DNA of 64,000 bases, from positions 1 through 64,000 of the IMG/VR virus record IMGVR_UViG_3300009509_001033; one strand, 5' to 3'. The stretch comes from a virus. Every line of letters starts with the position of its first letter. Position 1 is the first letter of the stretch. Below the pieces are notes generated by a model. That model searched no databases. It was given only the letters and a program-made list of their open reading frames with translations, and was not told where the DNA came from. Shown in pieces: positions 1 through 46,970 of this stretch. Made by a program: the position numbers and the translations under genes.

Positions 1-198
1 GGAATTATTACGTTTTCAAAAAAGTGACTTTGGGGCAGAAAAAAATTTCCCCAGAAAATATTTGAACCCCAAACCACTTTTCCTTTTTGCCTTTTGTATG
101 GTATGGGGAGTTTTTTTCTATTTTAATCAAAAAAAGGCAAAAAATGACCCCTATCCCATCTAAACTGTCCAAAATTAAAAAATTTAAGGGTTAATGAG
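1..198. other. Non-coding leader with nested inverted repeats
   Basis: No convincing gene lies here. Two inverted repeats are visible. Exact 12-base arms occur at 84-95 (TTTTTGCCTTTT) and 132-143. Imperfect 15-16-base arms occur at 20-35 and 67-81 (the right arm reads CCCCAAACCACTTTT), with a smaller GGGG/CCCC hairpin inside. The region may hold a terminator for a gene to the left and the 5' leader of the gene at 199. I found no clear -35/-10 pair. Confidence 0.5.
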
Positions 199-1200
199 AT
201 GAAATTAACAAATTTTATAGTAGAACAAAAAATGGCACTTGAGATGGAGGATGGTATCGTCACTGCATGGAATACCAAGGCACCCTATTGGCCAAGGGCT
301 ATGACCATATCAAGAGAGGTGCCTGATAATGTGGTAACCTACTTAAAGCAGCAAGGGGTACAAGGAAAGAGAGCAAAGAAAGTTGCACGAAAGAATGTGA
401 AGATCACCAAGCAGTGGGCTAGGTATGGTGGTGTAGACAATACACCTAAGACTGACATACTCATAGGTGCCTACAGGATAAGCCTTAAGACAGGTCCACG
501 TAGTAGGCTTATGAGTGGTGGTAAGGGAGAGAGTGCAGCTACCTTCTATAACATACTAGATAGAGTGGACCTTAAGGACTCTGAGTTAATTGACACCATC
601 TCTGGGATGTTGGATCAATGGGAGAAGAAGATAGTAGGCTCTGCCCCATTGAGCAAGGAGAAGAGGAAGAACACTCTGTTGAAGCAAGCAGACCAGATGC
701 ACAGGGACATGACAGGCATCCTTGATAATTTCTTCTCCACCAACAAGGACTTCCGTAATGCCTTTGCTAGAGAAGCAATGACAGGGGAGATCAAGTTCGG
801 TAAAGGGTCTCCTGGACAGGCTGAATATATACTAAAGGTGCTAGATCCCTTCTCAGGCAAGAAAAATGCCTTCAATTCCTGCTCTGACAGTGCATATATA
901 GCTAATATAGCCAAGCAAATGAACCTCAGAGTGGAATGGAAGAGCACCAAGACCAAGGGAGAGTACCGTTATTGGTCCGTTTTGAGCCTTGCACTTGATA
1001 AAATGAACGAAGAATTTGCTAAATATGAAGGGCAACAGCTTAATGAAGGCATTATATCGGCAATTTTAACCAAGTTAAAGGTATTTTTAGGCAATATTAT
1101 CGGTAAAATCAAGCAATATATAAGGAAAGGTATTGAATATGTCATAGAGTTCCTTGATATATCCCCTGATATTACCGTAAATAATGAAATAATATTCTAA
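199..1200 (+). CDS. Phage protein, possible PD-(D/E)XK-like nuclease fold
   Basis: A 333-aa protein of unknown function. Around residues 83-110 it has a Thr-Asp, a short hydrophobic strand, an Ile-Ser-Leu-Lys and then a Ser-Arg-Leu-Met-Ser-Gly-Gly-Lys-Gly-Glu stretch. This spacing resembles the D...xxK core of PD-(D/E)XK nucleases, but that is only a pattern match. The middle is basic and helical. The last 50 residues form amphipathic, hydrophobic helices (Ile/Leu/Lys-rich) that could bind membrane or another protein. The ATG is preceded by AAGGG about 9 bases upstream. A promoter follows the gene, so it is not part of the downstream operon. It could be a structural or injected protein. Confidence 0.6.
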   Translation: MKLTNFIVEQKMALEMEDGIVTAWNTKAPYWPRAMTISREVPDNVVTYLKQQGVQGKRAKKVARKNVKITKQWARYGGVDNTPKTDILIGAYRISLKTGPRSRLMSGGKGESAATFYNILDRVDLKDSELIDTISGMLDQWEKKIVGSAPLSKEKRKNTLLKQADQMHRDMTGILDNFFSTNKDFRNAFAREAMTGEIKFGKGSPGQAEYILKVLDPFSGKKNAFNSCSDSAYIANIAKQMNLRVEWKSTKTKGEYRYWSVLSLALDKMNEEFAKYEGQQLNEGIISAILTKLKVFLGNIIGKIKQYIRKGIEYVIEFLDISPDITVNNEIIF

Positions 1201-1236
1201 AACATGTTATACAAAGCTGTTGTAACATGTTATAAT
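1201..1236 (+). promoter_or_regulatory. Promoter with twin palindromic operator-like repeats
   Basis: A perfect -10 box TATAAT (1231-1236) lies 17 bases after a TATACA -35 (1208-1213, 4 of 6 consensus bases). The 10-base sequence AACATGTTAT occurs twice, at 1201-1210 and 1224-1233. Each copy contains the 8-base palindrome AACATGTT. One copy overlaps the -35 and the other the -10. This looks like a sigma70 promoter with a repressor or activator site, placed to drive the long plus-strand operon from 1253. The regulator is unknown. Confidence 0.6.
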
Positions 1237-1252
1237 AGGGAGTGGATTGATT

Positions 1253-2461
1253 ATGGATACTGCAATTGTATTAGGATATGATGGATATATAGGACATGCC
1301 CTCACACTAAGGCTATTAGCAAAGGGATATAAGGTAATTGGTATAGACAACTATACCAGACGAAAAGCTGTTGATGAAATGGGAAGCATCTCAGCAATCC
1401 CTATACTAAGCCCTACAGAGAGATCAGCACACCTTCAAAAACTAGGAGAGTTCATTCCTTTCTATATACACCTACACCTAGACTACGAATCATTAAAAAA
1501 TATTTTTACCATTCATAAACCCTCAGTAATAGTGAATCTAGCACAACAACCTTCAGCACCTTATTCACAGATATCAGTGGACCATGCTGTACACTCAGCA
1601 ATCAATAATATAGCATCTACCATTAACGTGCTATGGGCTATGAAAGATCATGCTCCAGATGCACAGCTTGTACAGATCGGCACCATGGGTGAATATAATC
1701 CTGCTATAGGGGTTCCCATACCAGAAGGCACCTGTGATCTGGCTCTAGTAGACCCTGGAGCAGAAAATAAGGTGGGGGAGAAAGAGTCTGATAAGGTGAT
1801 TAATAAACATGTTCTGAAGAACGTGATTTTTCCTAGGTCTGGAGGGTCTTTTTACCACACCTCAAAAATTTCTGCAACCTATTTCATTGAATATGCTTGT
1901 CGAGTGTATAACATAAATGCTACAGATATTATGCAAGGAGTGGTTTATGGAAATTATACCCCAGAGATCCTTGATACTGGCTTACATACACGTTGTGATA
2001 GTGATGAAGCATTCGGTACAGTGGTAAACAGATTTATCGTTCAAACTGCTATAGAACATCCATTGACTATCTATGGTGAAGGAGAGCATAAGAGAGGATT
2101 CTTAGCTTTGAATGATAGTGTACAGTGTCTTATGCTTGCTATAGAGAATAGTGATTATAGTGGCTATAGGGTATGGAATCAACTTGATACTGTACATAGT
2201 ATGAATGAGGTAGCTGATATGATTATACGTGCTGCATGTGAGAAGGGGTATTTCCCTATAAAGAAATTTATAGAGTCTCCCAGAGTAGAGGTTACATCAG
2301 ACTTCTATTATAATCCTGTTGTGGAGAAATTGAAGAAATTAGGTTTCTCTCCTACTAGGTCTATATATGATGAAGCTCTATTTACTTTTGATCATATTGA
2401 TAGGGCTAATGTGGGGCAACTGTTAAAAGTGGTTATGCCGAAAATATTGTGGAGGTCTTGA
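1253..2461 (+). CDS. sqd1-like: UDP-sulfoquinovose synthase-like NAD-dependent sugar enzyme
   Basis: An extended short-chain dehydrogenase closely resembling SQD1, which makes UDP-sulfoquinovose from UDP-glucose and sulfite. Visible features: GYDGYIG NAD loop (8-14), DNYTRR (32-37), GTMGEY with catalytic Thr144 (143-148), YHTSK with Tyr201 and Lys205, ATDIMQGVVYG (223-233), and the downstream HPLTIYGEG and RGFLALNDSVQC blocks, all of which have close SQD1 counterparts. At 402 aa it matches the mature SQD1 length. I prefer ATG 1253 to the in-frame TTG at 1247 because AGGGAG (1237-1242) is better spaced from it. It is first in the operon that also carries APS kinase and sulfotransferases. The exact sugar product is not proved. 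Confidence 0.85.
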   Translation: MDTAIVLGYDGYIGHALTLRLLAKGYKVIGIDNYTRRKAVDEMGSISAIPILSPTERSAHLQKLGEFIPFYIHLHLDYESLKNIFTIHKPSVIVNLAQQPSAPYSQISVDHAVHSAINNIASTINVLWAMKDHAPDAQLVQIGTMGEYNPAIGVPIPEGTCDLALVDPGAENKVGEKESDKVINKHVLKNVIFPRSGGSFYHTSKISATYFIEYACRVYNINATDIMQGVVYGNYTPEILDTGLHTRCDSDEAFGTVVNRFIVQTAIEHPLTIYGEGEHKRGFLALNDSVQCLMLAIENSDYSGYRVWNQLDTVHSMNEVADMIIRAACEKGYFPIKKFIESPRVEVTSDFYYNPVVEKLKKLGFSPTRSIYDEALFTFDHIDRANVGQLLKVVMPKILWRS

Positions 2462-2462
2462 T

Positions 2463-2999
2463 ATGGCTGAGAGAAGACTGTGGGCATTGGGGTTAGATAG
2501 GAAAGGAAGGAAACCCCTGCATACACTTGTTGAGAAGAAATACTATCAAGAAGGTCTGAACGGATATTATGAAAATGGGTTCTGGATCTGGACTCCTGGT
2601 AAGGTGAACTATCATGTATATATAAAATCCAATTTCTGGAAAAGGCTTAAAGAAATATACTTTGAGTCAGTAAATGAAATATGTGAAGGGTGTGGATCAG
2701 TGGCAAAGCAACTTCACCATATAACATATGATAATCTTGGAATGGAGCAGTGGAATGATTTAAAGGCTCTTTGTCTTGATTGTCATTATGAAGCCCATGG
2801 TGGTGTGATAGATATTGACTCCTATGAGCTAGGAGATTATGATGCCAATGAATATGGAAGGATTAATGATGCCAGATTGAAGCTTTGGAAACAGGAACGA
2901 TTAGATGAATTAAAGGCAGCAGAGAATAAACGGTTACTTGATAAACTGATCAGAAAATATGTTGAATTTGAAAACGATATCAATATAAAAAAAGGATAA
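2463..2999 (+). CDS. HNH endonuclease-like protein
   Basis: A 178-aa protein with a central HNH-type zinc module: Cys-Glu-Gly-Cys at about residue 77, a His-His pair (QLHHITYDN), and Cys-Leu-Asp-Cys-His at about 111-115. This is the beta-beta-alpha-metal pattern of HNH nucleases. The C-terminal third is a charged helix. The start follows one base after the stop of the SQD1-like gene. Free-standing HNH proteins in T4-like phages are often homing endonucleases, but no intron or split target is seen beside it. It could also be a packaging or recombination nuclease. Confidence 0.7.
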   Translation: MAERRLWALGLDRKGRKPLHTLVEKKYYQEGLNGYYENGFWIWTPGKVNYHVYIKSNFWKRLKEIYFESVNEICEGCGSVAKQLHHITYDNLGMEQWNDLKALCLDCHYEAHGGVIDIDSYELGDYDANEYGRINDARLKLWKQERLDELKAAENKRLLDKLIRKYVEFENDINIKKG

Positions 3000-3002
3000 C
3001 AT

Positions 3003-3146
3003 ATGTTTGGAGATATGGTATTATATGTCAAGTTAAAATGGAGACAATTCTGGTGTATCCATAATTATAAATATGATCCTATCGGCAGTGATGTCTGTAG
3101 AACCATATTAATGGAATGTGTTAAATGTGAAAGGATAAAGTCATGA
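3003..3146 (+). CDS. Small CxxC protein (47 aa)
   Basis: A 47-residue protein with a WCIHNYKY segment followed by DVC and ECVKCERIKS, giving a Cys/His zinc-ribbon-like pattern. Its stop overlaps the next ATG as ATGA. Length, spacing and motif argue that it is real despite its size. Function unknown. Confidence 0.65.
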   Translation: MFGDMVLYVKLKWRQFWCIHNYKYDPIGSDVCRTILMECVKCERIKS

Positions 3147-3415
3147 CAGATTGTTACTGCTTTCCACCACACAATTATACATGTCATAACTGCTATGAAG
3201 CAGAGACCAACAGGCAGAAAGTACATAAACGTAAAAAGGGCATATACTGGTGTGATCACTGTGATGCTGCACTTGTAGGGGATTGGGAAAAATGCCCTAC
3301 GTGTGGAAAGAGGTCTGGGGTGAGAAGGATCAAAGAAGGAAAGAGGAAAGGTGGGAAACTGCCAGTAGAGATTGCTTCTCTCAAAAAGGCAATATTACTA
3401 AAACTGTTGAGGTAA
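3143..3415 (+). CDS. Zinc-ribbon protein, unknown function
   Basis: A 90-aa basic protein with CHNC near the N terminus and a CDHC...CPTC ribbon at about residues 37-55, followed by a Lys/Arg/Gly-rich tail. It overlaps the small Cys protein upstream by 4 bases, so the two are probably translationally coupled. It probably binds zinc and possibly nucleic acid. No specific family recognised. Confidence 0.7.
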   Translation: MTDCYCFPPHNYTCHNCYEAETNRQKVHKRKKGIYWCDHCDAALVGDWEKCPTCGKRSGVRRIKEGKRKGGKLPVEIASLKKAILLKLLR

Positions 3416-3419
3416 TAAT

Positions 3420-3641
3420 ATGGAGACAAGAGACCTTATAAAAATGCTTCTTGATGAAGATGCCTATGTACAGGACATTGCAGTTGAGATGAATACAGAT
3501 GGATTTGTATTCCTGTCTGCAAAATTTGTCTTTGTCCCTAATAAGGTGGGCATACCCAAAGTGGTATTAATGGGCAAGGAGCAGCATGATAAAATAAAGG
3601 ACATAATAGAACCTTTAGAAGATGAGCTATTTGAGATATGA
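3420..3641 (+). CDS. Hypothetical acidic protein (73 aa)
   Basis: An acidic 73-residue protein with alternating hydrophobic strands in the middle (FVFLSAKFVFVPNK) and acidic helices at both ends. It starts 5 bases after the previous stop and overlaps the next gene by 4 bases (ATGA). No family recognised. Confidence 0.6.
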   Translation: METRDLIKMLLDEDAYVQDIAVEMNTDGFVFLSAKFVFVPNKVGIPKVVLMGKEQHDKIKDIIEPLEDELFEI

Positions 3642-3826
3642 AACGAGTAAACAGGCTTGAGAAGCACAAACGAATGAAATGCTTTATTGACTTCAAGAGA
3701 AGGTATGGTCTATATCAAAGGTGGATACCTGCCAATGGTGATTGCTGGCAATATAGGCAAATTGATTTTAACTTCAAATATAGATATGAACATGAATTTA
3801 CGATACCCCAGATATGGGCTAAATGA
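3638..3826 (+). CDS. Hypothetical basic aromatic protein (62 aa)
   Basis: A 62-residue protein rich in Arg, Lys, Tyr and Trp. It starts on the ATGA overlap with its upstream neighbour and its stop lies just before the glycosyltransferase start. No motif recognised. It is supported mainly by its position in a gapless operon. Confidence 0.55.
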   Translation: MKRVNRLEKHKRMKCFIDFKRRYGLYQRWIPANGDCWQYRQIDFNFKYRYEHEFTIPQIWAK

Positions 3827-3843
3827 AAATATGGAGAGATAGA

Positions 3844-6207
3844 ATGGCAATTGACGTACAGACAACTAGAATGAGAAGAGGTAGCACTGTATGGTTACCA
3901 CCTGATAAGCTGAAGGAAGCACAACAACAAGAAGAAGACAAGATACCTAGATTCACCATAATCATACCAACACTAAACAATTATGATGATGTCTGTATTG
4001 CCTTTAATAGTGTATATTCACAGCTAGGTAAACATGACAATATAGTAGTAGCTGATCAGGGGTCAACTGATGGAACTCAACCGGATACCTTTGCTGCTGA
4101 TCCCAGAATTGTATATGTGAAATATCCCAAAGCCAAGAAGCTGGAGATAATCAACTTTGCTATAGTGAATGTGGTGCAGACCAGATATGTCTTGTTATTG
4201 GACTCAAAAAGCTTTTTACAAAAGGGTGTATTAAATAAGCTTAGAGATTCACTAGGCAAGAAACCAGTATCTACCCTCATTATGTTTAAGAATGTTGGAA
4301 TCCAAAGGGGGCAGATAGGGCAAATTGTTGACTATCCCAGAGTGAAACCATCTCCCCCACCTACTACAACTACTGCAATAACACCAACTTCTAAATTAAT
4401 GCCATCGGTATATTCGTTTTCAGGATATGTATTTCAGAAGATAGATGCTATTAGAGCAGGTCTTTTTATAATCAATAATGACTTCTATGCACCTGCAATC
4501 TTCATGGAGAAAATGAAGAGACTAGGATGTAGCATTTCATATAGAGATGAATTTGTTGTTAATACCGTATATACCGATATTAAAGCAGAGGAATGGACAG
4601 AGGACCATAAGCAGGTTTTTGAAACTATAGTTGATAAGTCTTATTCGGGATATAAGGTCAATGGAATGGACCCTATTTCAATTATCATTATAGATAAGCA
4701 ATCTGAGGTAGAGGGGTTAATCAATCAGGTCAAAGTTCCTAATGATGAGATCAGGATGATAAACACATTGGCCACAGGAACCATTATTAAGAAATTTGAT
4801 GATGAAGTGAAGGAATGTAAGCATGATAAAATAATGGTTGTAAAGGGCAGAAACCCAGAGCCTATATATGACCCTATTACTAATTTGAGAATATTGTTTG
4901 ACAGGAACAGGGTATTGACCTCCGGTGTTGAGAGAGGAATCAACTGTACTATATTCTCCAAGCATCTATATAGAAAGCCTTCATCCAGAATGGATGAACC
5001 AAGTATTGAAAAGTTAATTAATGAAATAGCAAAAAAGGCTAGAACCTCAATTGATTTAACAGATCTTATAATTCATCCATCAAGGGTTCAGACACAGACA
5101 ATTATGAAAAGTGGTCATGCAATAGAAGAGCCTGTCCGTAACGTCCAGGCAGAAAGAAGAAGAAAAAAGCAAACTATATATGTGCCTAAAGGTAGAAAGG
5201 GAAAAGTAAAGAAAGAGATAACTAGACCACCATCAAAAACATCTGTAACAGTTGGGATACCTCAGTATTCAATGAAATGGAAACGAGTTCAGGATCTTCC
5301 TGGCATTCCAGGTATCAGAAATAGAGAACCCAAAATTCTTTTCATATGTGATGTTGAGGGATGGGCATGGCATTATAAATCAATGCAGTTAAAGAAACAT
5401 CTCAGTAACGAGTTCTCTATAGATATCATCTGGCTTATTGGTCCTGGTGCAAGGGCAATTAAGCCAAGGACATATGATTTGTATGTGACATTTGGATATT
5501 CGTATGTGGATTATCTAAAGGATGTCTCACCAAGAAAGAAGATAACAGGCATTACTGCCCATAGGCCACATTCAGTTTTATCACCACAAATGCAGAAAGC
5601 AGCAGTGGTTCATGCCAATAGCATAATGCTTTATCGTGAATTGAAAACTATGCATAGTATAGTCTATTATGTCCCTAATGGTGTTGATGAAGAAATGTTC
5701 TATCCACAAAAGCCGATACCAGATTATAGAGATAATATTGTAGTTGGTCATGTTGGAAAATTGTCTGTGATGAAGGGACAAGAGCAATTCATAAAACCTG
5801 CTATTCAGCAAGCAGGGGCAGTTCCTCTATTTCACTTCAATGATTATACTAATGCACTTCCTATTAGCAAGATGCCAGATATATATCAGGATATGGATGT
5901 CTTCATTGTTGCATCAACAGAAGATGGTACTCCGAATCCAGCATTGGAAGCAGCAGCATGTGGAAGACCAATTATCTCTAATGCAATTGGAAATATGCCT
6001 GAGTTAATAAAGAATGGATATAATGGCTTTATTGTGGAGAAGAGGATAGGGGCATATGTAGAGAAGATCAACTATCTTAGGAACAACAGACAAAAGCTTA
6101 TTGAGATGGGCAAGAATGCACGAAAGACCATTGAGGAAGAATGGACCTGGAAAATACAATCAGAGCATTGGAGAAGAATGTTCAGAGAGGTATTGGGATT
6201 GATATGA
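3844..6207 (+). CDS. Two-domain glycosyltransferase (GT2-like + GT4)
   Basis: A 787-aa fusion. Residues about 37-130 form a GT-A/family-2 nucleotide-sugar domain (FTIIIPTLNN, then DQGSTDGT), although the usual DxD is replaced by Asp-Ser-Lys at 120-122. A variable middle and a very basic linker follow. The last 290 residues are a GT-B/family-4 transferase: KILFICD, PNGVDEEMF, GKLSVMKG and the E-x7-E region in DGTPNPALEAAACG. ATG 3844 is chosen over 3823 because GGAGAG sits 5 bases upstream. A 53-base stretch is identical to the GT4 gene at 7980. It probably builds the phage-specified glycan; donor and acceptor are unknown. Confidence 0.85.
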   Translation: MAIDVQTTRMRRGSTVWLPPDKLKEAQQQEEDKIPRFTIIIPTLNNYDDVCIAFNSVYSQLGKHDNIVVADQGSTDGTQPDTFAADPRIVYVKYPKAKKLEIINFAIVNVVQTRYVLLLDSKSFLQKGVLNKLRDSLGKKPVSTLIMFKNVGIQRGQIGQIVDYPRVKPSPPPTTTTAITPTSKLMPSVYSFSGYVFQKIDAIRAGLFIINNDFYAPAIFMEKMKRLGCSISYRDEFVVNTVYTDIKAEEWTEDHKQVFETIVDKSYSGYKVNGMDPISIIIIDKQSEVEGLINQVKVPNDEIRMINTLATGTIIKKFDDEVKECKHDKIMVVKGRNPEPIYDPITNLRILFDRNRVLTSGVERGINCTIFSKHLYRKPSSRMDEPSIEKLINEIAKKARTSIDLTDLIIHPSRVQTQTIMKSGHAIEEPVRNVQAERRRKKQTIYVPKGRKGKVKKEITRPPSKTSVTVGIPQYSMKWKRVQDLPGIPGIRNREPKILFICDVEGWAWHYKSMQLKKHLSNEFSIDIIWLIGPGARAIKPRTYDLYVTFGYSYVDYLKDVSPRKKITGITAHRPHSVLSPQMQKAAVVHANSIMLYRELKTMHSIVYYVPNGVDEEMFYPQKPIPDYRDNIVVGHVGKLSVMKGQEQFIKPAIQQAGAVPLFHFNDYTNALPISKMPDIYQDMDVFIVASTEDGTPNPALEAAACGRPIISNAIGNMPELIKNGYNGFIVEKRIGAYVEKINYLRNNRQKLIEMGKNARKTIEEEWTWKIQSEHWRRMFREVLGLI
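5947..5999 (+). repeat. 53-base exact repeat shared by two GT4 genes (copy 1)
   Basis: These 53 bases are identical to 8760-8812. Both encode the same catalytic stretch (EAAACGRPIISNAIGNM) of the two GT4 domains. The flanking DNA differs, including at synonymous positions. Confidence 0.9.
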
Positions 6208-7145
6208 AAGTAGCTATATTGGGAAATACCAGATTAAACTATAGTTGGTTCGTATTGACACATAGACAGGGATTGAAGCTGAATGGTCATACCGTAATTG
6301 ATATAGACTATAAGACAACTCCACTAATGGAGATCTATAATAGGCTTGTAAGTGAGAATCCTAAATATGTCTTTACACATTTAACATTTCATTCTCATAT
6401 ACATCCACCTGATGTTATACTTAATGTCTTGAAGCAGGTGAAGAATAAGACAGGAACTAAATTTGTTCATGTATTAATGGATGCTCGACATGAACCAAGG
6501 TATAATAAAGATATCTCAGATGTCTTCCATATGGCATTTGTGAATCAAACAGAAAACCTTGAAAAATTCCAGGATTATTGGAGGATACCAGTTATCTTTG
6601 AACCATATTGCTCATTGGTGCAAGAAGAATTGGCAAACCCTGTAGGTGAATTGGCATTTGGTAATCGGCTTATTTTTCCTGGCAGTCCTATGGCACATCC
6701 ACCACGTAGGAATTTTTTACAGAGGGTACAGCAAATAATGCCGTTAGTATATTTGCAAACTCAGTCAGCAAATGATTTAAGGCATAGAACACCGGAACTG
6801 TCAATATCAGCTAAAGCTATTCTATCAGCATGTATTGGATATGATATAATGCATTATAATGAAGTAAGACCATGGCAATATCTAGGTGCTGGTGCCTGTT
6901 TGATACATAGGAAGTTTAAAGGTGAGGATGATTTAATACCAAGTGATCTCTATTTGGAATATAACTCACCAAAGGAAGTAAAAGAACAATTTACTAGAGC
7001 ATGTAATGAAGATACAATGCCGATGAGAAAGAAGGCATTTGAGTTCATGCAGAAACACCATAACAGTAAAGTTCGAATGTATAATGTAATGGAGTGTCTT
7101 GAGGAAAGACAGTTTACTACTAATTCATTTATATGGGAGTTATAA
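6204..7145 (+). CDS. CgeB-like GT-B glycosyltransferase
   Basis: A 313-aa protein with an N-terminal Rossmann-like start (MKVAILGNTRLNYSW), a central HVLMDARHEP segment, and a C-terminal half with FPGSP and RPWQYLGAGACLIHRKF. The latter matches the spore-maturation CgeB/glycosyltransferase group 1 pattern, in which a GAGAC-like loop contacts the nucleotide sugar. I place the start at ATG 6204, which overlaps the upstream stop as ATGA; longer in-frame extensions run into the previous gene. It sits between two GT4 proteins, so a role in the same glycan pathway is likely. Confidence 0.7.
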   Translation: MKVAILGNTRLNYSWFVLTHRQGLKLNGHTVIDIDYKTTPLMEIYNRLVSENPKYVFTHLTFHSHIHPPDVILNVLKQVKNKTGTKFVHVLMDARHEPRYNKDISDVFHMAFVNQTENLEKFQDYWRIPVIFEPYCSLVQEELANPVGELAFGNRLIFPGSPMAHPPRRNFLQRVQQIMPLVYLQTQSANDLRHRTPELSISAKAILSACIGYDIMHYNEVRPWQYLGAGACLIHRKFKGEDDLIPSDLYLEYNSPKEVKEQFTRACNEDTMPMRKKAFEFMQKHHNSKVRMYNVMECLEERQFTTNSFIWEL

Positions 7146-7363
7146 TGGCAAAGAAAATAATAGTATGTGAGGGCAAGAAAGTAAAACTAAAGCATCTAAA
7201 GAAAGGTCTCATTTTCAGTCTTCTTGAAAACCAGGAGTTCATAGGTAATTTTGAAGTAGCAGAGGAAATGGATGCTACAGGAACAGTAAAGGCAAGAATT
7301 GTCACTCCTAGTATAGGTGAGAAGTGGATAGAGACTAAGTTTACAGAGGATGATTTGCAATGA
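7145..7363 (+). CDS. Hypothetical protein (72 aa)
   Basis: A 72-aa, beta-rich and Lys-rich protein. ATG 7145 shares one base with the upstream stop and is preceded by GGGAG, so I prefer it to the in-frame ATG at 7133. It overlaps the downstream methyltransferase by 4 bases. Function unknown. Confidence 0.6.
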   Translation: MAKKIIVCEGKKVKLKHLKKGLIFSLLENQEFIGNFEVAEEMDATGTVKARIVTPSIGEKWIETKFTEDDLQ

Positions 7364-7983
7364 AAAATTATGTGAAGAACCAAATCGAAATTACAAATAA
7401 GAATATGAAGGACAAGTATTTCTATCTTCATAAACAAAGACATGATGAATATGCAAACTGGCTTAAACCTCATGTTAAAAAGGATATGAAGGTTCTGGAT
7501 ATAGGTTGTAGAGATGGTAGCTTTCTTGAATCTCTAAGAAACATAACTGGAGTATGGCAATTGTGGGGAATAGAGCTTAATGAGACTGCAAGCATGATTG
7601 CAGGTGATAAGGGGATAATGGTATATAATGTTGATGCTCATAATATATCATGTGAGAACTTACCGTCATGTGGTATGGAATTTTATGATCTTGTGTGTAT
7701 GACTCATTTTCTTGAACATACTCATTCTCCTATGTTGGTCCTGAAGGAAGCTTTAAGAGTATTAAAGACAGGTGGGATGCTTTTGATTGAAGTGCCACTT
7801 GAACCAATGCCAGATAAGCTACCCACACAGTGGGGTCACTATTTCACTTTTCAATCACATAGTGATCTGATTAAGTTACTTAATATGGTTCGTAGGGAAG
7901 AGGGATATAATTTTGAGACTGTCAAAGAGCTAAAAGACAAGAAGAAAAATAAATGGTATAGGATGCTGATAAGGAAGAAATGA
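7360..7983 (+). CDS. Class I SAM-dependent methyltransferase
   Basis: A 207-aa Rossmann-fold methyltransferase. Motif I is VLDIGCRDGSF (45-55), the acidic motif II end is GIELN (70-74), a DLVCMTHFLEHTHSP segment corresponds to motif IV, and LKTGGMLLIEVP corresponds to motif VI. This is the Methyltransf_11/23 layout often found in glycan and lipid clusters. It overlaps both neighbours by 4 bases. Its place between glycosyltransferases suggests O-methylation of a sugar, but the substrate is inferred. Confidence 0.85.
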   Translation: MKNYVKNQIEITNKNMKDKYFYLHKQRHDEYANWLKPHVKKDMKVLDIGCRDGSFLESLRNITGVWQLWGIELNETASMIAGDKGIMVYNVDAHNISCENLPSCGMEFYDLVCMTHFLEHTHSPMLVLKEALRVLKTGGMLLIEVPLEPMPDKLPTQWGHYFTFQSHSDLIKLLNMVRREEGYNFETVKELKDKKKNKWYRMLIRKK

Positions 7984-9017
7984 AAAAACCCAAAGTAAGA
8001 AAACCCAAAGTATATACACCTATTGATTATCCACCTCCACCATTGAAAGTTTCTCCATTAAAGGAATATGTATTCCCAAAAGTAAAGGGAAGACCTAAAG
8101 TATTGATGATAGCTGATCAAAAGGGATGGGGAGCATGGAAAAGAGGTGAGTATATACAGAAGCTTTTATCTGATGAGTTTGAGCTAGATTTAATTGACCT
8201 ACGAACTTTCTTAGATAATTTCGAAGATATCAAGGAGAAAAATTATAAGGTGCTCTATGCTCTGCTTCATATATTAATGAGATATGGTAAAGTCAGAGAG
8301 ATGTCAGAGAAGATCAAGACAATAGCAACCGTGACATCTAGACAAATTCTTAAACCAAGCTTTGGTCATGAAATGGAAGCAAGGATAAAGAACTTTAGAA
8401 TTTTTACAAAACATGTGAACATACTGATTGTCAATAATTTGCTCGTTAGGCCAGAAGCAGAGAAATATTTTCGTGGTCCTGTTAGATATGCTCCTAGGGG
8501 GGTAGATCCTGATGTCTTTAGGTTTACGAAATATCCTATGGACAAGCAGTTTACAGTCTTCTATGTTGGTAAGCCAGTAATTGAGAAGGGTCTTAAGTTT
8601 TATATAAAGCCAGCATGTAAAAGGGCAGGGGCTAGGTTGATAACTAATACAAGAAACTTTACTAATGCATTATCTGAGGAAGAAATGATGCTGGCTTATA
8701 ATAACTCCAATGCATATGTGGTTGCAAGCATAATTGATGGTACTCCAAACCCTGCACTAGAAGCAGCAGCATGTGGAAGACCAATTATCTCTAATGCAAT
8801 TGGAAATATGCCAGAATTTATTGAAGAAGGTGAGAATGGATTTCTTGTCCCTATGGAGGTTAGTGCATATGCTAGTAAGCTAAAGTGGATGGTGAATAAT
8901 AGAGAGAAAGCAGCAGCAATGGGACAAAGGGCTAGAGAAACAGTTTTAAAAGGATGGACATGGGATTATATACTTAACAAGTATCAAAGACACGTACTAA
9001 GAGAATTATTAAATTAA
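7980..9017 (+). CDS. GT4 glycosyltransferase
   Basis: A 345-aa GT-B transferase. After a Pro/Lys-rich N terminus it has KVLMIADQKGWGAW, PRGVDPDVF, FYVGKPVIEKGLKFY and the E-x7-E loop in DGTPNPALEAAACG. It is a paralogue of the C-terminal half of the gene at 3844 and shares a 53-base identical segment with it. The ATGA overlap with the methyltransferase implies coupled translation. Sugar donor unknown. Confidence 0.85.
   Translation: MKKPKVRKPKVYTPIDYPPPPLKVSPLKEYVFPKVKGRPKVLMIADQKGWGAWKRGEYIQKLLSDEFELDLIDLRTFLDNFEDIKEKNYKVLYALLHILMRYGKVREMSEKIKTIATVTSRQILKPSFGHEMEARIKNFRIFTKHVNILIVNNLLVRPEAEKYFRGPVRYAPRGVDPDVFRFTKYPMDKQFTVFYVGKPVIEKGLKFYIKPACKRAGARLITNTRNFTNALSEEEMMLAYNNSNAYVVASIIDGTPNPALEAAACGRPIISNAIGNMPEFIEEGENGFLVPMEVSAYASKLKWMVNNREKAAAMGQRARETVLKGWTWDYILNKYQRHVLRELLN
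8760..8812 (+). repeat. 53-base exact repeat shared by two GT4 genes (copy 2)
   Basis: Identical to 5947-5999. The identity ends abruptly at a synonymous difference on the left (CTA versus TTG leucine codons) and at a differing codon on the right. Confidence 0.9.
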
Positions 9018-9036
9018 AAATGGTAGGAGGTTTAAA

Positions 9037-9738
9037 ATGGTAGCAACACAACAAAAATGGAAAGTAGATCCAGAACTACATTCTTGTGATAGAGAAGATG
9101 GTAAGAAGGTGCTGGACTACTACACAACTTATGTGAAGGAGTTTCTAGATGCTGATCCTTTAAGAGATTGGGAGAGCATCGAAAGATGTAAGGAACTATG
9201 GAAGTTCTTTCTATCTCTGGATATCAAGCTACCTAAGAAATGCAGTGTATTGGATTGTGGTACAAAGGATGGTCAATTTCCAGCATGGCTTGTAGAGCAA
9301 GGATATGAAGGTGTTGGTATTGAAATATCAAAGCCATATGTCAAATATGCTACTGATAGAGGTAGACCTGTAGAGTTCGGAGATGTCACAGATCTTCATT
9401 TCAAAGATAGATCCTTTAATGTGGCCTTTGCTCATCACCTATTGGGTTTGGTGCCTGATTACCAGAAGGCATATGAAGAGATGATCAGGACTGTTAAAGC
9501 AGGTGGTTATATAATCACTCTAGATAATATTCCTGGTAACCCAAGGAAGCATTATCAGCTTGTGGAAAGCCCAGAGCAATTAACACAGATGGTTGATGGT
9601 GCATCTCTTAAGGTGGGTAATGGAGCACATGCAGTTGATCTTGTTTTCTTTGACTACTATCCACAGGGGTTTGAAAAGGGAAGAGAGTTCTTGACAGTGC
9701 TACAGAGAAAACGTGGAGCACCAAGAAAGAAGAAATAA
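9037..9738 (+). CDS. SAM-dependent methyltransferase
   Basis: A 233-aa class I methyltransferase. Motif I is VLDCGTKDGQF (about 70-80), with GVGIEIS after the next strand, GDVTDLHFKDRSFNVAFAHH as the motif III/IV region and VKAGGYIITLDNI as motif VI. The C terminus is very basic (RKRGAPRKKK). A strong AGGAGG lies 7 bases before the ATG, and the gene follows a 19-base gap, so it may be translated more independently than its neighbours. Substrate unknown; a sugar or lipid acceptor is likely from context. Confidence 0.8.
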   Translation: MVATQQKWKVDPELHSCDREDGKKVLDYYTTYVKEFLDADPLRDWESIERCKELWKFFLSLDIKLPKKCSVLDCGTKDGQFPAWLVEQGYEGVGIEISKPYVKYATDRGRPVEFGDVTDLHFKDRSFNVAFAHHLLGLVPDYQKAYEEMIRTVKAGGYIITLDNIPGNPRKHYQLVESPEQLTQMVDGASLKVGNGAHAVDLVFFDYYPQGFEKGREFLTVLQRKRGAPRKKK

Positions 9739-9750
9739 GGAGACTAGAAT

Positions 9751-10458
9751 ATGAATGCTTTTATTGTGGCTCAACAGAGAACAGGGTCTACTTTGCTCTA
9801 TGAGTTTCTAGATTCACATCCAGGAATATTCTGTGCAGATGAGCTATTTATTATCAAGGGGAAAATAGACTGGAGATTCAGAATGATCAAGGTCTATAAT
9901 TGGTATAGGAAAAATAAGGGATGGACCCCAGACCAGTTTATTGATTGGGTTTTTAGTTTGTCTCAGCATTCGTGCATGAAACTTTTATATCACCAAATAG
10001 AATTTTTCCATTTGCATGATAGAGTATTCAGTACACCTATAATTCATTTGACAAGGAGAAACTACTTTCATAGAGCAGTTTCACAGTTTGCAACTGTAGG
10101 CACTATTAATAATAAAAAACCTGAAGCTTACATCTTGGATATAAAGGAAGCAATTAGAAGAGATGAAATGTGGGAAAAGGCATTTAAGGAGAATCTTAAT
10201 ACGAAAAAATACCTTAGAGTGTATTATGAAGATCTTGTTGGTAGACATGAGAGTGTTAGAAGAGCAAGGTACACTTTTATGAAAGAAAGTATTGGGAAAA
10301 CTGTATGTAGCTTCTTTGGAGTTCCTTATTTCGAAATGTTTACATCAACACCAAAGGCACTTCAACAGAAGGACTATTGGAACTATATACCTGATAGACA
10401 TAAGAAGCTACTTAAATTGATGTTGGAAAATAGCCTTCCAGAGAGTGTATGGAAATGA
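9751..10458 (+). CDS. Stf0-like sulfotransferase
   Basis: A 235-aa P-loop-like protein. Residues 8-14 (QQRTGST) form the 5'-phosphosulfate-binding loop, followed by LLYEFLDSHPGIFCADELF, which is typical of the Stf0/trehalose-sulfotransferase type. Residues 96-113 (IIHLTRRNYFHRAVSQF) match the 3'-phosphate-binding Arg...Ser region. These enzymes move sulfate from PAPS to a carbohydrate hydroxyl. An APS kinase three genes downstream would supply PAPS. It overlaps the next gene by 10 bases. Acceptor unknown. Confidence 0.8.
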   Translation: MNAFIVAQQRTGSTLLYEFLDSHPGIFCADELFIIKGKIDWRFRMIKVYNWYRKNKGWTPDQFIDWVFSLSQHSCMKLLYHQIEFFHLHDRVFSTPIIHLTRRNYFHRAVSQFATVGTINNKKPEAYILDIKEAIRRDEMWEKAFKENLNTKKYLRVYYEDLVGRHESVRRARYTFMKESIGKTVCSFFGVPYFEMFTSTPKALQQKDYWNYIPDRHKKLLKLMLENSLPESVWK

Positions 10459-11024
10459 GACTAAGTATTTTTAGCATGAAACGTAGTGGTCAACATGCCA
10501 TTATAAATTGGCTCTGTGAACAGGGCAAACCTGCTTTACATTTTAATGCATGTGAGCTTAACTTGGAGCCTAGAAATTTTATTGTTGAATATGGTAACGA
10601 CAAAAAAGTTATTCACCATAAACGTGATTTTCAACCGTTGTTGAAAAACTACAAATTGGTGATATACAATTTTGAGGATATACCTGTTGTTGATACAGGC
10701 ATGAAACGAATGATCATCATTAGAGACCCATGGAACTGGAAGGCAAGCAGAAAGAGGTCCAAATTGGCTCTGAGAGATGATATCTGGATACAACATGCAC
10801 TCAACCCTACCCCTAAAGTGCTCTTTAATAGGTGGGTAATGGAAGAGGAATATCGAAAAAACCTTTGTAAAAGTCTCTCTGTTCCCTTTACTGATGCAGG
10901 TTTCAGGGAAGTGTTTTGGCATGGCAGAAGTCATTTTGATAATATGAATGTGCTGGAGAGATTCAAAGAAGAGAAAGTGACAGTTTCACCTGAAATGGAA
11001 AAATTATGGAAGGGCTTAAAGTAG
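10449..11024 (+). CDS. Divergent sulfotransferase-like P-loop protein
   Basis: A 191-aa protein with KRSGQHAIINWL (11-22) in the place of the 5'-phosphosulfate loop and RMIIIRDPWNWKASR (87-101) in the place of the 3'-phosphate motif. The order and spacing match sulfotransferases, but the loop (RSGQH) differs from the RTGST of its neighbours. It may use another acceptor or be a related P-loop transferase. The start lies within the end of the upstream sulfotransferase, so the two are probably made together. Confidence 0.65.
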   Translation: MEMRLSIFSMKRSGQHAIINWLCEQGKPALHFNACELNLEPRNFIVEYGNDKKVIHHKRDFQPLLKNYKLVIYNFEDIPVVDTGMKRMIIIRDPWNWKASRKRSKLALRDDIWIQHALNPTPKVLFNRWVMEEEYRKNLCKSLSVPFTDAGFREVFWHGRSHFDNMNVLERFKEEKVTVSPEMEKLWKGLK

Positions 11025-11593
11025 AAAAACCGGAAAATGAAAAACCTTCAGATTGGTATGATGATCATACAGGAAAGGGAAGGGCATTTTTCCAAAGTGA
11101 ATTTCATCAAGAACTATATCCTGAGATAGTGAAGTTTCTAGATCGAAAGGATAGAATCATTGATTTAGGTTGTGGTGGTGGAAGATTGATACAGGCTCTT
11201 CAAAAAGAGTTCATTCCCAAAAGCTATCTAGGTATAGACTTTTCAAATGCTAGAGTTGAAGTAGCAAATTCTGCATATGGTGGTAAGTGGTCTTTCAAAG
11301 TGGGAGATATTACAAGATACAATAAGATCTATGAGAAGTTCGATACGTTTGTGTTGATTACCGTTCTTGAGCATATAAATGAGGATAGAAAAGTTTTAGA
11401 GAATATACCATCTGGAAGTAAAGTAATAATGGCCAATCCTAATAAGATGTCTGAAAGTCATGTCAGACAATATATATCAGAAGAGTATATAATTGATAGA
11501 TATAATGATCTACTTGAGTTTCAGGATGTCAAGATATTATACAATGCTGATAGTAGTCCTAGAATGTTCATACATAAATGCAGGAGGTTATAG
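11006..11593 (+). CDS. Class I SAM-dependent methyltransferase
   Basis: A 195-aa methyltransferase with motif I IIDLGCGGGRL (51-61), YLGIDFS, GDITRY and FDTFVLITVLEHI, the last corresponding to motif IV. It overlaps the upstream sulfotransferase-like gene by 19 bases and shares one base with the next start (TAGTG). It is the third methyltransferase of the cluster. A role in capping or decorating the same glycan is inferred. Confidence 0.8.
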   Translation: MEGLKVEKPENEKPSDWYDDHTGKGRAFFQSEFHQELYPEIVKFLDRKDRIIDLGCGGGRLIQALQKEFIPKSYLGIDFSNARVEVANSAYGGKWSFKVGDITRYNKIYEKFDTFVLITVLEHINEDRKVLENIPSGSKVIMANPNKMSESHVRQYISEEYIIDRYNDLLEFQDVKILYNADSSPRMFIHKCRRL

Positions 11594-12459
11594 TGGAGAG
11601 ATTTGAGTTGGATGTTTTGATATGTGGATCAAGTAGACCTCAGTTGCTTATCTACTTACTGGAGTCATTGGAGAGATTTATTGTGTCACAATCTAAGAAT
11701 ACTGATTTTAGATTATTGATGCATGAGGATTTTGTTCAACCAGAAAAGAGCAAAGAGACAGTAGAATTGGCCAGAGAATGGGGAGCAAAAGTAATAGCAC
11801 ATAATCCACCTATCGGGTATGGACCTGCAATGAAGCTAATGCTAGATAACCATATCAAAACAGAGTACATGCTGAACCTTCAAGATGATTGGGAGTTTGA
11901 ACGAACAGGTATTGATATAGATAGAATCCTATGGACTATGGACAAACACTCTAAAATTAATTGCATCACCTTTAACAAGAGAAAGAATGACCAAGCAGGT
12001 CATATTGTCCCTAATGGGCAGTATAAATATGATGGTTTGTTATTGTCATTATCCAAAGCATGGCATGTATTACCAGGAGTGTGGAGAGTATCAGTGGCAA
12101 GAAATAAATGGGTTCCAGCACAGTCTAATCCTGCTGGTGCTTTTATAAAAGAGTTTGGTGGAGTGACAGACAATAAAAAATTTTTAGAGGAACATGTTGG
12201 TGCATACTTTTATGGACCAGCAGGGGATGAAAGATGGGTTAGGCATTTGGGGCATACATGGAAGACAACACCATGGGGAAAAAATAATCCAAAGCTTGAA
12301 GCTGATATATCAGCCATAACAAAATGGAGACCAAAGTGGTTGCCACTTGAAGCAAGACCTACTAATAAAAAAGTAACAATAAAACCACATAATGAAGAAC
12401 ACTTTTTAAAACTTTTAGAACAGATGCCAGAAGATGTAAAGAAAGAGTATAAACGATGA
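11593..12459 (+). CDS. GT-A type glycosyltransferase-like protein
   Basis: A 288-aa GT-A/family-2-like protein: FELDVLICGSSRPQLL at the N terminus, then ELAREWGAKVIAHNPP, a GYGPAMKLML helix and YMLNLQDDWEF, which carries the acidic DDxE metal/nucleotide site. I place the start at GTG 11593: AGGAGG (11582-11587) is 5 bases upstream and the codon overlaps the previous TAG. An in-frame ATG at 11578 lies upstream of this ribosome site and is less likely. Substrate unknown. Confidence 0.7.
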   Translation: MERFELDVLICGSSRPQLLIYLLESLERFIVSQSKNTDFRLLMHEDFVQPEKSKETVELAREWGAKVIAHNPPIGYGPAMKLMLDNHIKTEYMLNLQDDWEFERTGIDIDRILWTMDKHSKINCITFNKRKNDQAGHIVPNGQYKYDGLLLSLSKAWHVLPGVWRVSVARNKWVPAQSNPAGAFIKEFGGVTDNKKFLEEHVGAYFYGPAGDERWVRHLGHTWKTTPWGKNNPKLEADISAITKWRPKWLPLEARPTNKKVTIKPHNEEHFLKLLEQMPEDVKKEYKR

Positions 12460-13151
12460 ATGCCGTACAGATGAATAATACTAGAACAGGATCTACCCTG
12501 CTATATAGACTTCTTAATTCTCATCCTTCTATATTTGCATGTGATGAGCTATTTGCAAAGGAGTCACCACATAACAAACGAATATGTATGCTCAGACCAT
12601 ATGAGTTCTATAAGAAGAAGATGTCTATATACGAGTACCTGAAGATGTTTTTCAGCTATAACTCTCATACATGTTTTAAGGTCATTCCCCATATCCATTT
12701 TAAAAACTATCCTGATCTGGCAGGTGTGATAAAAGGACTTCCAGTGATTCATCTTAAAAGGGATTATATAGCCAGAGCAGTTTCGGCCTTTGCCCATAAC
12801 GGTAAGCTTGAGACTGTAACATATAAAGACTTTATTGATGAGATAGAAACAGCAGTTTTGATAGACAATTCCATTGAGTTGTTTGCAAAGAGCTTTCCTT
12901 CTATTCAAGTTAATTATGAGTGGATGATAAAACCAGAGAGAGTTACTTATTATGGCAAGGAACTTACCTTTGCATCTAACCGTCTTAACAAAGTGGTAAG
13001 TGACTTTTTCAAGGTTCCTTATTTTGAAATGTATGCAGATTCGGTAAAGGAACTTAAAGACGATTACTGGAGCTACATTAAAAAACCAATTGTAGAGAGG
13101 TTAAAAGAAGTTGCTAACGATTTGGCTACTAGGACTACCATCAGCAGGTAA
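12456..13151 (+). CDS. Stf0-like sulfotransferase
   Basis: A 231-aa paralogue of the protein at 9751. TRTGSTLLYRLLNSHP (9-24) holds the phosphosulfate loop at the same residue position. PVIHLKRDYIARAVSAF (96-112) is the 3'-phosphate-binding motif. Both proteins end with a ...FFxVPYFEMY...KDDYWSYI block, so they share a common origin. The start overlaps the preceding glycosyltransferase as ATGA. The last 41 bases overlap the APS kinase gene, a direct physical link between PAPS supply and use. Confidence 0.82.
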   Translation: MNAVQMNNTRTGSTLLYRLLNSHPSIFACDELFAKESPHNKRICMLRPYEFYKKKMSIYEYLKMFFSYNSHTCFKVIPHIHFKNYPDLAGVIKGLPVIHLKRDYIARAVSAFAHNGKLETVTYKDFIDEIETAVLIDNSIELFAKSFPSIQVNYEWMIKPERVTYYGKELTFASNRLNKVVSDFFKVPYFEMYADSVKELKDDYWSYIKKPIVERLKEVANDLATRTTISR

Positions 13152-13647
13152 GACAACAATATCAAGAGAACTATGTGCCAAGCTTGCATCTATGGGCTAT
13201 AAGGTGGAGCTACTGGATGGTGATGAAGTGAGAAAGAATCTTGGTGGTGGATATTCATATGAAGAGAGACATGCACAGATCAGGAGACTACGATACTTCT
13301 GTAAGATCCTTAACAAGCATGGTATAGTGCCTATAGTTGCTGCTATTACTCCTTACGAACTATGGAGAGTGGAGAACAGAAAAGAGATAGATCATTATCT
13401 TGAGGTCTATGTAAATGCCCCATTGGAGCTATGTCAGAAAAGGGACGTGAAAGGTCTCTATAAACGTGCTCTGGCAGGGGATATAAAGAATATGACTGGA
13501 GTGGATGATCCATTTGAAGAAGCTTACAATTCAGATGTTATATGTTATACTGATGATGAAGATGTAAGGCAAAGTGTAAATAAAATATATAACAAATTTG
13601 TGGAGGTTATGAAAAATGCCGTATATAGAGCCAGAGACAAAAAGTGA
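13111..13647 (+). CDS. cysC: Adenylylsulfate (APS) kinase
   Basis: A 178-aa APS kinase that phosphorylates APS to PAPS, the sulfate donor of sulfotransferases. P-loop GLPSAGKT (8-15), LDGDEVR (35-41), the RYFCKILNKHGIVPIVAAITP strand region, NAPLELCQKRDVKGLYKRA and MTGVDDPFE are all classic CysC features, and the length fits a stand-alone enzyme. The only possible start is TTG 13111, because an in-frame TAA lies at 13102-13104. AGAGAGG lies 10 bases upstream. The start is inside the preceding sulfotransferase gene. The 3' end overlaps the next gene by 32 bases. It needs APS from the host sulfate-assimilation pathway. Confidence 0.9.
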   Translation: MLTIWLLGLPSAGKTTISRELCAKLASMGYKVELLDGDEVRKNLGGGYSYEERHAQIRRLRYFCKILNKHGIVPIVAAITPYELWRVENRKEIDHYLEVYVNAPLELCQKRDVKGLYKRALAGDIKNMTGVDDPFEEAYNSDVICYTDDEDVRQSVNKIYNKFVEVMKNAVYRARDKK

Positions 13648-13933
13648 TAGAAGAGAACAGATGGACAAGATTGTTGATCTGATGTTGGAACAGGATGTAA
13701 AGGTTGATGGTGACCTTAACTATATCCTGTTTTCTTTTTTCTGCAAGCACATGATGAAGATAGGTCCATCATATAACAAGATGAAAAACTTTCGTGGTGA
13801 GCTAATGGAAATTCATGATCATATAGAATCACGATTCTTGGTATACTACGAAAGAAACAAGATGGAAGAGAATGGTGATGTTCCTGGTGCAGAGGAACTA
13901 GTAGAGTTTATAAAGAATATGAATGATAAGTAA
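13616..13933 (+). CDS. Conserved phage protein, DUF6899-like
   Basis: A 105-aa helical protein. The MPYIEPE start, the central DGDLNYILFSF, PSYNKMKNFRGELMEIHDHIESRF and the KMEENGDV end match a small conserved phage family that I recall as DUF6899; the family name is from memory. GGAGG (13602-13606) precedes the ATG, which is inside the APS kinase gene. Function unknown. Confidence 0.65.
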   Translation: MPYIEPETKSDRREQMDKIVDLMLEQDVKVDGDLNYILFSFFCKHMMKIGPSYNKMKNFRGELMEIHDHIESRFLVYYERNKMEENGDVPGAEELVEFIKNMNDK

Positions 13934-14852: not shown

Positions 14853-15070
14853 TGATATTACTGGATGATATTGCTGAGACAATAAGAGTAGGTGATATGA
14901 TGATAACATATGATGAAGCATTTTATCTGCAACTTGATAAAGGCAACCAGACCTTTATTAATTCATTTAGATGGATATATGCTTATGATCATATTCATCC
15001 AGAAGGTGGTGAGCCAGATCATGAGAAGATTTTGGCCTATTTGGGATTGCCTGGAGGTGGAGACAGATGA
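14852..15070 (+). CDS. Hypothetical protein (72 aa)
   Basis: An acidic 72-residue protein whose start shares a base with the previous stop (TAATG) and whose stop overlaps the epimerase start. No motif recognised; supported by operon packing. Confidence 0.55.
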   Translation: MILLDDIAETIRVGDMMITYDEAFYLQLDKGNQTFINSFRWIYAYDHIHPEGGEPDHEKILAYLGLPGGGDR

Positions 15071-15888
15071 AACGAATACTTGTGACCGGAAGTAGAGGAT
15101 ATAGAGGAGAGAATTTGTATAAGTTCCTTGAGAGTGCAGGATATGATGTAATTGGTATAGATTCTAAAAAGGGACAACGTGCAGAGAAGTTTCCAATGTA
15201 TGATAATATAGATGGTATAGTTCACTTAGCTGCAATCCCAGGAATAGCAGCATGTGAAGACAAGCCAGCAGAAGCTATAGTCAGTAACTTGGAATCAACT
15301 ATCTATATGTTCAATATATCCAGGAAGAAAGGCATTCCATGTGTGTTTACATCATCTCAAGCTGCAAAGGAACCCAAGTCGAGTATATATGCATTTACTA
15401 AATATGCATCTGAAGTCATAGGGAATAGGCTTATTGATGAAGGTGCTAAAATAAGGATACTGAGACTGTCAAATGTATATGGTGGTTACAATTACCTGGA
15501 GAAGAAAAATTCTGTAGTAGCTAGGTTTGCAAAGGCAACATTAGCTAGAAAGCCTTTCGTAGTGCATGGTCATGGCACACAAATTCGAGACTTTATTCAT
15601 GTAGATGATGTTTGTAGAGCAATATATTTAGCTCTTCTTACAGAAAACGTAGTAGATCTTCCAATTGACATCGGAACAGGTATAGGAACCCAGATCAGTA
15701 CAGTTGCCTTCTATTTCCAACAACTTTTTCGTGCCAAGTTTACATTTGACTTTTCATCTGATAGAATAGGTAAAGAGAGTAATATAGCAGATACTAAAGA
15801 TGCAGAAAAAGTTCTGGGCTTTAAAGCTGAAGATAGATTGGTGCAGTATGTAGAATCATTGAGAGAGGAATATAATGGACACAATTAG
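15067..15888 (+). CDS. NAD-dependent sugar epimerase/dehydratase
   Basis: A 273-aa extended SDR of the GalE/WbpP type. It has the NAD loop GSRGYRG (8-14), IVHLAA (51-56), a TSS active-site triplet (95-97), the YAFTK dyad (Tyr108, Lys112), LRLSNVYGG, and RDFIHVDDVCRAI in the C-terminal substrate domain. It is slightly shorter than a typical UDP-glucose 4-epimerase. It would supply a nucleotide sugar for the cluster's glycosyltransferases; which sugar cannot be told. The stop overlaps a 36-residue gene. Confidence 0.85.
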   Translation: MKRILVTGSRGYRGENLYKFLESAGYDVIGIDSKKGQRAEKFPMYDNIDGIVHLAAIPGIAACEDKPAEAIVSNLESTIYMFNISRKKGIPCVFTSSQAAKEPKSSIYAFTKYASEVIGNRLIDEGAKIRILRLSNVYGGYNYLEKKNSVVARFAKATLARKPFVVHGHGTQIRDFIHVDDVCRAIYLALLTENVVDLPIDIGTGIGTQISTVAFYFQQLFRAKFTFDFSSDRIGKESNIADTKDAEKVLGFKAEDRLVQYVESLREEYNGHN

Positions 15889-17396: not shown

Positions 17397-17675
17397 ATGA
17401 AAAAATGTGCTGCTATTTTGATAGGATTAATGTTTTTGTTGTCTGCTTGTGGTATGTTTGTCAAAGAGGATAAAATTACTAAAGCAGTGGAGAAACAAGG
17501 TTATACAAATGTTCAGGTGCTCGACAAACATATTTTCTTTGTTGGTTGGAGAGGTTGTTCCAAAAGTGATGAAGCAGCATTTGATGTACTTGCAACAAAT
17601 GCTTTAGGTCAAAATGTTGATTTAGTTGTTTGTGCAGGTTGGCCTTTTAAGGGTGTAACAGTTAGAAGTAAATGA
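17397..17675 (+). CDS. Small lipoprotein
   Basis: A 92-aa protein with a lipoprotein signal: MKKC, a hydrophobic stretch (AAILIGLMFLL) and lipobox LSAC, predicting lipidation at Cys18. AGGAGG is 5 bases before the ATG. The mature part is short and has two further cysteines. It is probably placed in the host membrane, perhaps for superinfection exclusion or envelope effects; that role is inferred from general phage biology only. Confidence 0.75.
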   Translation: MKKCAAILIGLMFLLSACGMFVKEDKITKAVEKQGYTNVQVLDKHIFFVGWRGCSKSDEAAFDVLATNALGQNVDLVVCAGWPFKGVTVRSK

Positions 17676-38272: not shown

Positions 38273-38275
38273 GTT

Positions 38276-42499: not shown

Positions 42500-42503
42500 A
42501 TTT

Positions 42504-46967: not shown

Positions 46968-46970
46968 ATA

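Follow-up and report, generated by a model that had tools for sequence, protein, structure and literature searches.

What would a phage make with genes for activating and transferring sulfate that lie among genes for building and methylating sugars? The window analysed here, bases 1-64000 of the 69,803-base IMG/VR virus record IMGVR_UViG_3300009509_001033, raises this question through a plus-strand cluster (1253-13647) that encodes an SQD1-family (uridine diphosphate (UDP)-sulfoquinovose-synthase-like) enzyme, an adenosine 5'-phosphosulfate (APS) kinase, three sulfotransferases (ST1, ST2 and ST3), glycosyltransferases and three methyltransferases. Sulfated glycans influence how many cell surfaces are recognized, and we found no paper in the open-access literature that describes a phage making one of its own. 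We propose, with a probability of roughly 0.55, that the cluster gives the phage a pathway of its own to a glycan both sulfated and methylated, which would be assembled in the cytosol on a phage-encoded acceptor.

The record also carries genes for tail sheath, baseplate wedge, hub and tail proteins, which place it with the T4-like myoviruses; among cultured phages the best matches of the sheath protein reach about 33-41% identity. These tail and baseplate genes suggest that the phage is probably virulent, and their presence on the same contig rules out bacterial contamination as the source of the cluster. The structural genes lie on the minus strand, opposite to the sulfur and glycan genes. 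An initial annotation, made from the sequence alone, had placed the SQD1-like gene, the APS kinase and three sulfotransferases in one plus-strand region, and this is confirmed by phmmer, Pfam and NCBIfam searches and by the predicted fold of ST2. Its description of the genes as touching holds for 7360-13933, where neighbouring open reading frames (ORFs) overlap or stand no more than 20 bp apart, but not at about 3.0-3.8 kb, where a short ORF and gaps follow an HNH gene, nor at 7145-7360.

An APS kinase and three sulfotransferases in one cluster

The predicted source of 3'-phosphoadenosine 5'-phosphosulfate (PAPS) is a CysC-type APS kinase (13111-13647, plus strand), which has a TTG start and overlaps ST3. 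It scores 170.8 bits on the NCBIfam apsK model (TIGR00455; cut-off 138.7) and 151 bits in Pfam (cut-off 21.1), and in alignment it keeps the P-loop, DGD, KGLY and TG motifs of its family. The annotation had called these motifs intact, which is true of all but one: RxxQIRR stands where the copy in a related phage (contig G036, described below) and the other aligned sequences have RxxNIRR. The exchange of Asn for Gln, at a conserved position of that motif, is conservative, and we do not regard it as decisive. The window copy also differs from the usual CysC-type enzyme in that it adjoins a sulfotransferase instead of a cysteine operon.

Three plus-strand genes encode the sulfotransferases: ST1 (9751-10458), ST2 (10449-11024) and ST3 (12456-13151). 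ST1 and ST3, which share 36% identity in alignment, exceed the Pfam cut-off for Sulfotransfer_3 (51 and 30.7 bits, respectively; cut-off 27) and carry the RTGSTLL and R-x7-S motifs (R103-x7-S111 in ST1) of the PAPS-dependent Sulfotransfer_3 and Sulfotransfer_1 families. They had been annotated as Stf0-like; however, ST1 reaches only 15.7 bits on Stf0 (PF09037), below the cut-off of 22, and ST2 and ST3 do not match it. The third enzyme had been called divergent, and this judgement is borne out. ST2 has no Pfam match and belongs to a viral family, reached by a profile from a two-sequence alignment with a homologue of another phage, in which KRSG[QH]HA (KRSGQHA in ST2) takes the place of the usual [RK][ST]GTT-type motif and R12, G14, H16, A17 and R92-x7-S100 are invariant. 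In a VIA-align search with its AlphaFold model (predicted local distance difference test score, pLDDT, 78) the best entry is the sulfotransferase 4gox (Z 11.8) and all 50 entries listed are sulfotransferases; in Foldseek only one match falls below 0.001, and it is a sulfotransferase; behind it come sulfotransferases mixed with other P-loop proteins. Predicted fold and PAPS-site motifs together confirm ST2 as a sulfotransferase. The residues of the PAPS site, on whose loss the original proposal would have foundered, are kept in all three proteins, as judged from alignments and the ST2 model.

APS kinases and sulfotransferases are linked across phages

Co-occurrence of cysC with sulfotransferase genes in other phages, set beforehand as a test of the annotation, is found. 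Relatives in IMG/VR were obtained by profile scans with three alignments (A1, A2 and A3), while scans with a single protein (the APS kinase or ST1) or with an alignment of ST1 and ST3 gave no match. True APS kinases occur on 23 viral contigs besides the window, and six of these 23 also encode Sulfotransfer_3 (7/24 with the window included). Examples come from unrelated phages: the two genes are neighbours in L027 and L028 and about 2 kb apart in L025; in L042 an ST2-type sulfotransferase and an APS kinase share one glycan operon with sugar-nucleotide genes. In L046 (2630-3808) they appear to be fused in a 393-residue protein with a C-terminal APS kinase and an N-terminal sulfotransferase-like region, which scores below threshold on Sulfotransfer_1 (19.6 bits, cut-off 22).

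The same scan recovers a divergent APS-kinase-like protein at 57 loci (L047-L103; for example L052:9162-10441, L072:9220-10402 and L066:10001-11205), with 52-67 bits on Pfam APS_kinase in three examples and an assignment to PHROG 10255, which is named only 'kinase'; PHROG 27463, which also figures at these loci, has no known function. The kinase-like protein is often joined to a nucleotidyltransferase-like domain (GRYQPWHEGH), a combination that may constitute a mini PAPS synthase. At 16 of the 57 loci a sulfotransferase lies within 2.5 kb of the kinase-like gene, usually abutting it. In L042, too, the APS kinase (9992-10798) bears a nucleotidyltransferase-like domain.

Since many of the 36 APS-kinase-like contigs carry a kinase-sulfotransferase pair, the control was a set of 27 viral contigs that had been selected on account of other genes. 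A Pfam search found Sulfotransfer_3 in 15 of the 36 and in none of the 27 (Fisher p = 5e-5, indicative only); for the true kinases p is 0.002, a value that was computed with 7/23 where 6/23 is right and is likewise only indicative. This linkage suggests that viral cysC, which surveys list under sulfate assimilation, may have another use and may instead supply PAPS to phage sulfotransferases.

Related phages share the core of the cluster

At the DNA level, none of 50,697 phage records contains a close relative of the cluster. The SQD1 profile scan of IMG/VR led to locus L125, on the 110,776-base phage contig G036, which also has homologues of the baseplate and other proteins of the window. Its core genes lie on one strand, all inside 58.8-75.4 kb of the contig, and their products match those of the window at 57% identity for SQD1, 55% for a family 4 glycosyltransferase (GT4; the gene after SQD1 in L125 compared with the C-terminal part of 3823-6207), 45% for a second glycosyltransferase, 33% for a sulfotransferase (L125:14027-14794, compared with ST1) and 49% for the APS kinase. 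The homologue of 6204-7145 likewise adjoins the GT4 gene, and the APS kinase adjoins a homologue of window 21930-22724. The region also holds a second sulfotransferase and further sugar genes, which encode a DegT aminotransferase, a PglD/hexapeptide acyltransferase and a Gfo/Idh oxidoreductase.

A third phage (locus L221, contig G046) encodes an SQD1 of 44% identity, a GT4, a member of the ST2 family (39%) and another protein with a sulfotransferase-like motif that was recognized by eye and has no Pfam match. L125 and L221 share a gene shortly upstream of SQD1 (41% identity) that has no detectable counterpart in the window. In tblastn against the 50,697 phage records neither ST1, its L125 homologue nor the L221 ST2 gave a match, and SQD1 gave weak matches only. 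Because of the E-values and the corresponding clusters in other phages, a chance origin of the cluster is excluded.

Genes of these families are known individually from viruses: viromic studies list cysC, cysD and cysH (PMC12713726, PMC8066274), sulfotransferases whose function is unclear have been noted in phages (PMC10580990), and a Mu-like phage carries one UDP-sulfoquinovose synthase (PMC7785012). Those genes are single or of unclear function, whereas the genes of the window form one glycan operon. For the combined module, a glycan cluster in which the phage itself would both activate and transfer sulfate, searches of the open-access literature turned up no description. The annotation's claim that no phage system with the whole set has been described agrees with this, although the same core is present in the uncultured relative G036.

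The SQD1-family enzyme stands on a separate branch

The first gene of the cluster (1253-2461, plus strand) encodes a short-chain dehydrogenase/reductase of the SQD1 family, identified by phmmer, alignment and a residue table. It matches Arabidopsis SQD1 (1qrr) over residues 3-401 (phmmer E=2.8e-68; 39% identity in a pair alignment), with full-length homology to SQD1, SqdB and Agl3, the GTMGEY, YHxSK, QGVVYG, NRF and RG motifs, and the active-site Thr, Met and Tyr-xxx-Lys; residues matching T144, M145, E147, Y182 and K186 of Agl3 are all kept. On NCBIfam NF041015 it scores 386 bits, below the cut-off of 575, which does not settle its membership, since Arabidopsis SQD1 itself reaches only 485.

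In the initial annotation the SQD1-like enzyme, the APS kinase and the sulfotransferases were joined into one route. The arm from APS kinase through PAPS to the sulfotransferases is retained here: it is well supported by the PAPS-site residues of all three sulfotransferases and by the co-occurrence in other phages, and it follows the established chemistry of both families. The SQD1 step would instead form a separate branch, not downstream of the APS kinase, because UDP-sulfoquinovose synthases use sulfite and not PAPS (PMC4388408); no PAPS reductase (PF01507) was found in G000, G036 or G037, which are fragments.

The product of this branch may equally well be something other than UDP-sulfoquinovose, for instance a 4-keto, 5,6-ene or other sulfur-free hexose, in which case the sulfonate half of the scheme would be wrong and the sulfate half would stand. 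In Agl3, replacement of His95, Arg101, Met145, Tyr182 or Lys186 by Ala abolishes activity (PMC4388408). The first two of these, which primer sequences place in AIVHFAEQRSAP, correspond to Asn and Pro in the window protein (VIVNLAQQPSAP), so that sulfoquinovose is unproven as the product. In a table of 86 sequences, Asn at the His95 position is confined to the three phage proteins (window, L125 and L221), and the search for PAPS reductase revealed no sulfite-producing gene; both points favour a different product. Pro at the Arg101 position, on the other hand, is shared by 66 of 80 cellular homologues, among them an archaeal protein with a score of 572 bits on the model for UDP-sulfoquinovose synthase, so that this position is not diagnostic by itself; the window protein also retains the other catalytic residues. 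A tree places the three phage proteins in a single clade (SH-aLRT 99) inside the Pro-type part and outside the Arg-type SQD1 clade. The neighbourhoods of the 80 cellular homologues show no consistent sulfur or glycan context.

The SQD1 gene of L125 (9119-11758) has two intein-like insertions, both at active-site motifs: one inside GTMGEY and one between YYHA and SK. Without them the protein has 392 residues and reads GSMGEY. An SQD1-like protein with GSTGVY in place of GTMGEY is encoded on an 87-kb phage contig (L124:9992-12412), two genes before a sulfotransferase.

Glycosyltransferases and methyltransferases of the cluster

The sulfur genes had been described as interleaved with glycosyltransferases and methyltransferases, and for most of the plus-strand genes between them this is accurate. 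A two-domain glycosyltransferase (3823-6207; N-terminal GT2 and C-terminal GT4, from Pfam and pair comparison) and a GT4 enzyme (7980-9017; Glycos_transf_1, 1.2e-19) are accompanied by three S-adenosylmethionine-dependent methyltransferases at 7360-7983 (Methyltransf_23, 5.5e-19), 9037-9738 (Methyltransf_11, 1.1e-14) and 11006-11593 (Methyltransf_31, 1.3e-12). The description fits two further genes less well: the putative glycosyltransferase at 6204-7145 has a weak, sub-threshold GT-B match (20.8 bits), and the protein at 11578-12459, between a methyltransferase and ST3, matches no Pfam or NCBIfam family and is possibly a glycosyltransferase, judging from its context. Between SQD1 and the glycosyltransferase genes lies the HNH-like ORF (2463-2999; Pfam HNH 17.5 bits, sub-threshold), probably an inserted homing endonuclease.

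A model for the pathway and its alternatives

Our analysis suggests a model in which APS made by the host would be phosphorylated to PAPS by the phage APS kinase, and ST1-ST3 would draw on this PAPS for the O-sulfation of sugars that the cluster's glycosyltransferases assemble; the methyltransferases would cap some of these sugars. The SQD1-family enzyme and the nearby GT4 may make and transfer a special sugar derived from UDP-glucose, which would be sulfoquinovose, with sulfite supplied by the host, or else a modified hexose related to it. The clusters show no flippase, polymerase, initiating transferase, oligosaccharyltransferase or Gtr-type membrane protein, and a simple hydropathy scan found no polytopic membrane protein in them. 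Assembly would therefore be likely to take place in the cytosol, directly on a cytosolic acceptor encoded by the phage; the acceptor that we favour, as the most likely one, is a protein of the virion or another phage protein. The arrangement is reminiscent of the S-layer glycan route of Sulfolobus acidocaldarius, where the SQD1-family enzyme Agl3 and the glycosyltransferase Agl16 serve a glycoprotein glycan; that route is cellular and archaeal, whereas the phage cluster has its own PAPS supply and sulfotransferases. A broader form of the proposal, which we regard as doubtful, is that this T4-like lineage places on its virions or phage proteins a glycan with both O-sulfate and, through the unusual SQD1, C-sulfonate, and that viral cysC-type genes often serve sulfotransferases.

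Several points weigh against this model. The two Agl3-essential residues replaced in the window SQD1 bear on its sulfonate branch. The AlphaFold model of ST1 is poor (pLDDT 47), too poor for a structure search, so the case for its active site is made from sequence motifs. For the third phage, L221/G046, a 60-kb fragment yielded no APS kinase; all these records are fragments, in which absent genes prove little. Finally, the contigs compared for kinase-sulfotransferase linkage are not a random sample and include some near-duplicates.

Elsewhere in the window, the stretch 34382-48404 encodes possible adhesins that are also candidate glycan acceptors: very large proteins that contain RCC1-type repeats (34382-38272), and a lectin protein of the LamG type (46971-48404).

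The sulfated glycan might instead be placed on the host surface, through precursors of lipopolysaccharide or capsule that host machinery exports, and there alter adsorption or exclude other phages. Phages do carry seroconversion genes, and the GT4s, methyltransferases and epimerases, together with the DegT, PglD/hexapeptide and Gfo/Idh genes of G036, resemble O-antigen sugar genes. We nevertheless consider this destination rather unlikely: the clusters show none of the membrane components listed above, and surface remodelling would presumably pay less for a phage that is probably virulent.

Decoration of hypermodified phage DNA bases with sugars and sulfates, as a defence against host restriction, is distinctly improbable in comparison. 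T4-like phages glucosylate their DNA, and a thymidylate-synthase-family gene is present in G036 and G046. According to one paper, nucleotide modification based on sulfotransferases has also been reported in phages (PMC10829341). However, the 69.8-kb record has no thymidylate-synthase-family gene, and in PHROG the G036 protein matches, weakly, thymidylate synthase and not hydroxymethylase. The gene of G036 and G046 speaks neither for nor against modified DNA; the many glycosyltransferases and three different sulfotransferases would also fit an oligosaccharide better than a modified base.

That cysC is an ordinary auxiliary gene boosting host sulfate assimilation to cysteine, with the sulfotransferases and glycosyltransferases as unrelated passengers, would agree with the usual classing of viral cysC under assimilatory sulfate reduction (PMC12713726), but is very unlikely because neither PAPS reductase (three records) nor ATP sulfurylase (PF01747; 12 records, CysN not searched) was found in these fragmentary records, and APS kinases stand beside or joined to sulfotransferases in several phages, a combination conserved in G036.

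Neighbouring genes

Downstream on the plus strand lies a gene for a nicotinamide adenine dinucleotide (NAD)-dependent nucleotide-sugar epimerase/dehydratase (15067-15888; Pfam Epimerase, 4.7e-34), which probably belongs to the sugar pathway of the cluster. Further downstream is an inosine monophosphate dehydrogenase/guanosine monophosphate reductase gene (17672-18733; Pfam 300 bits). In L125 the large subunit of ribonucleotide reductase (38-3571) is split by an intein with LAGLIDADG domains.

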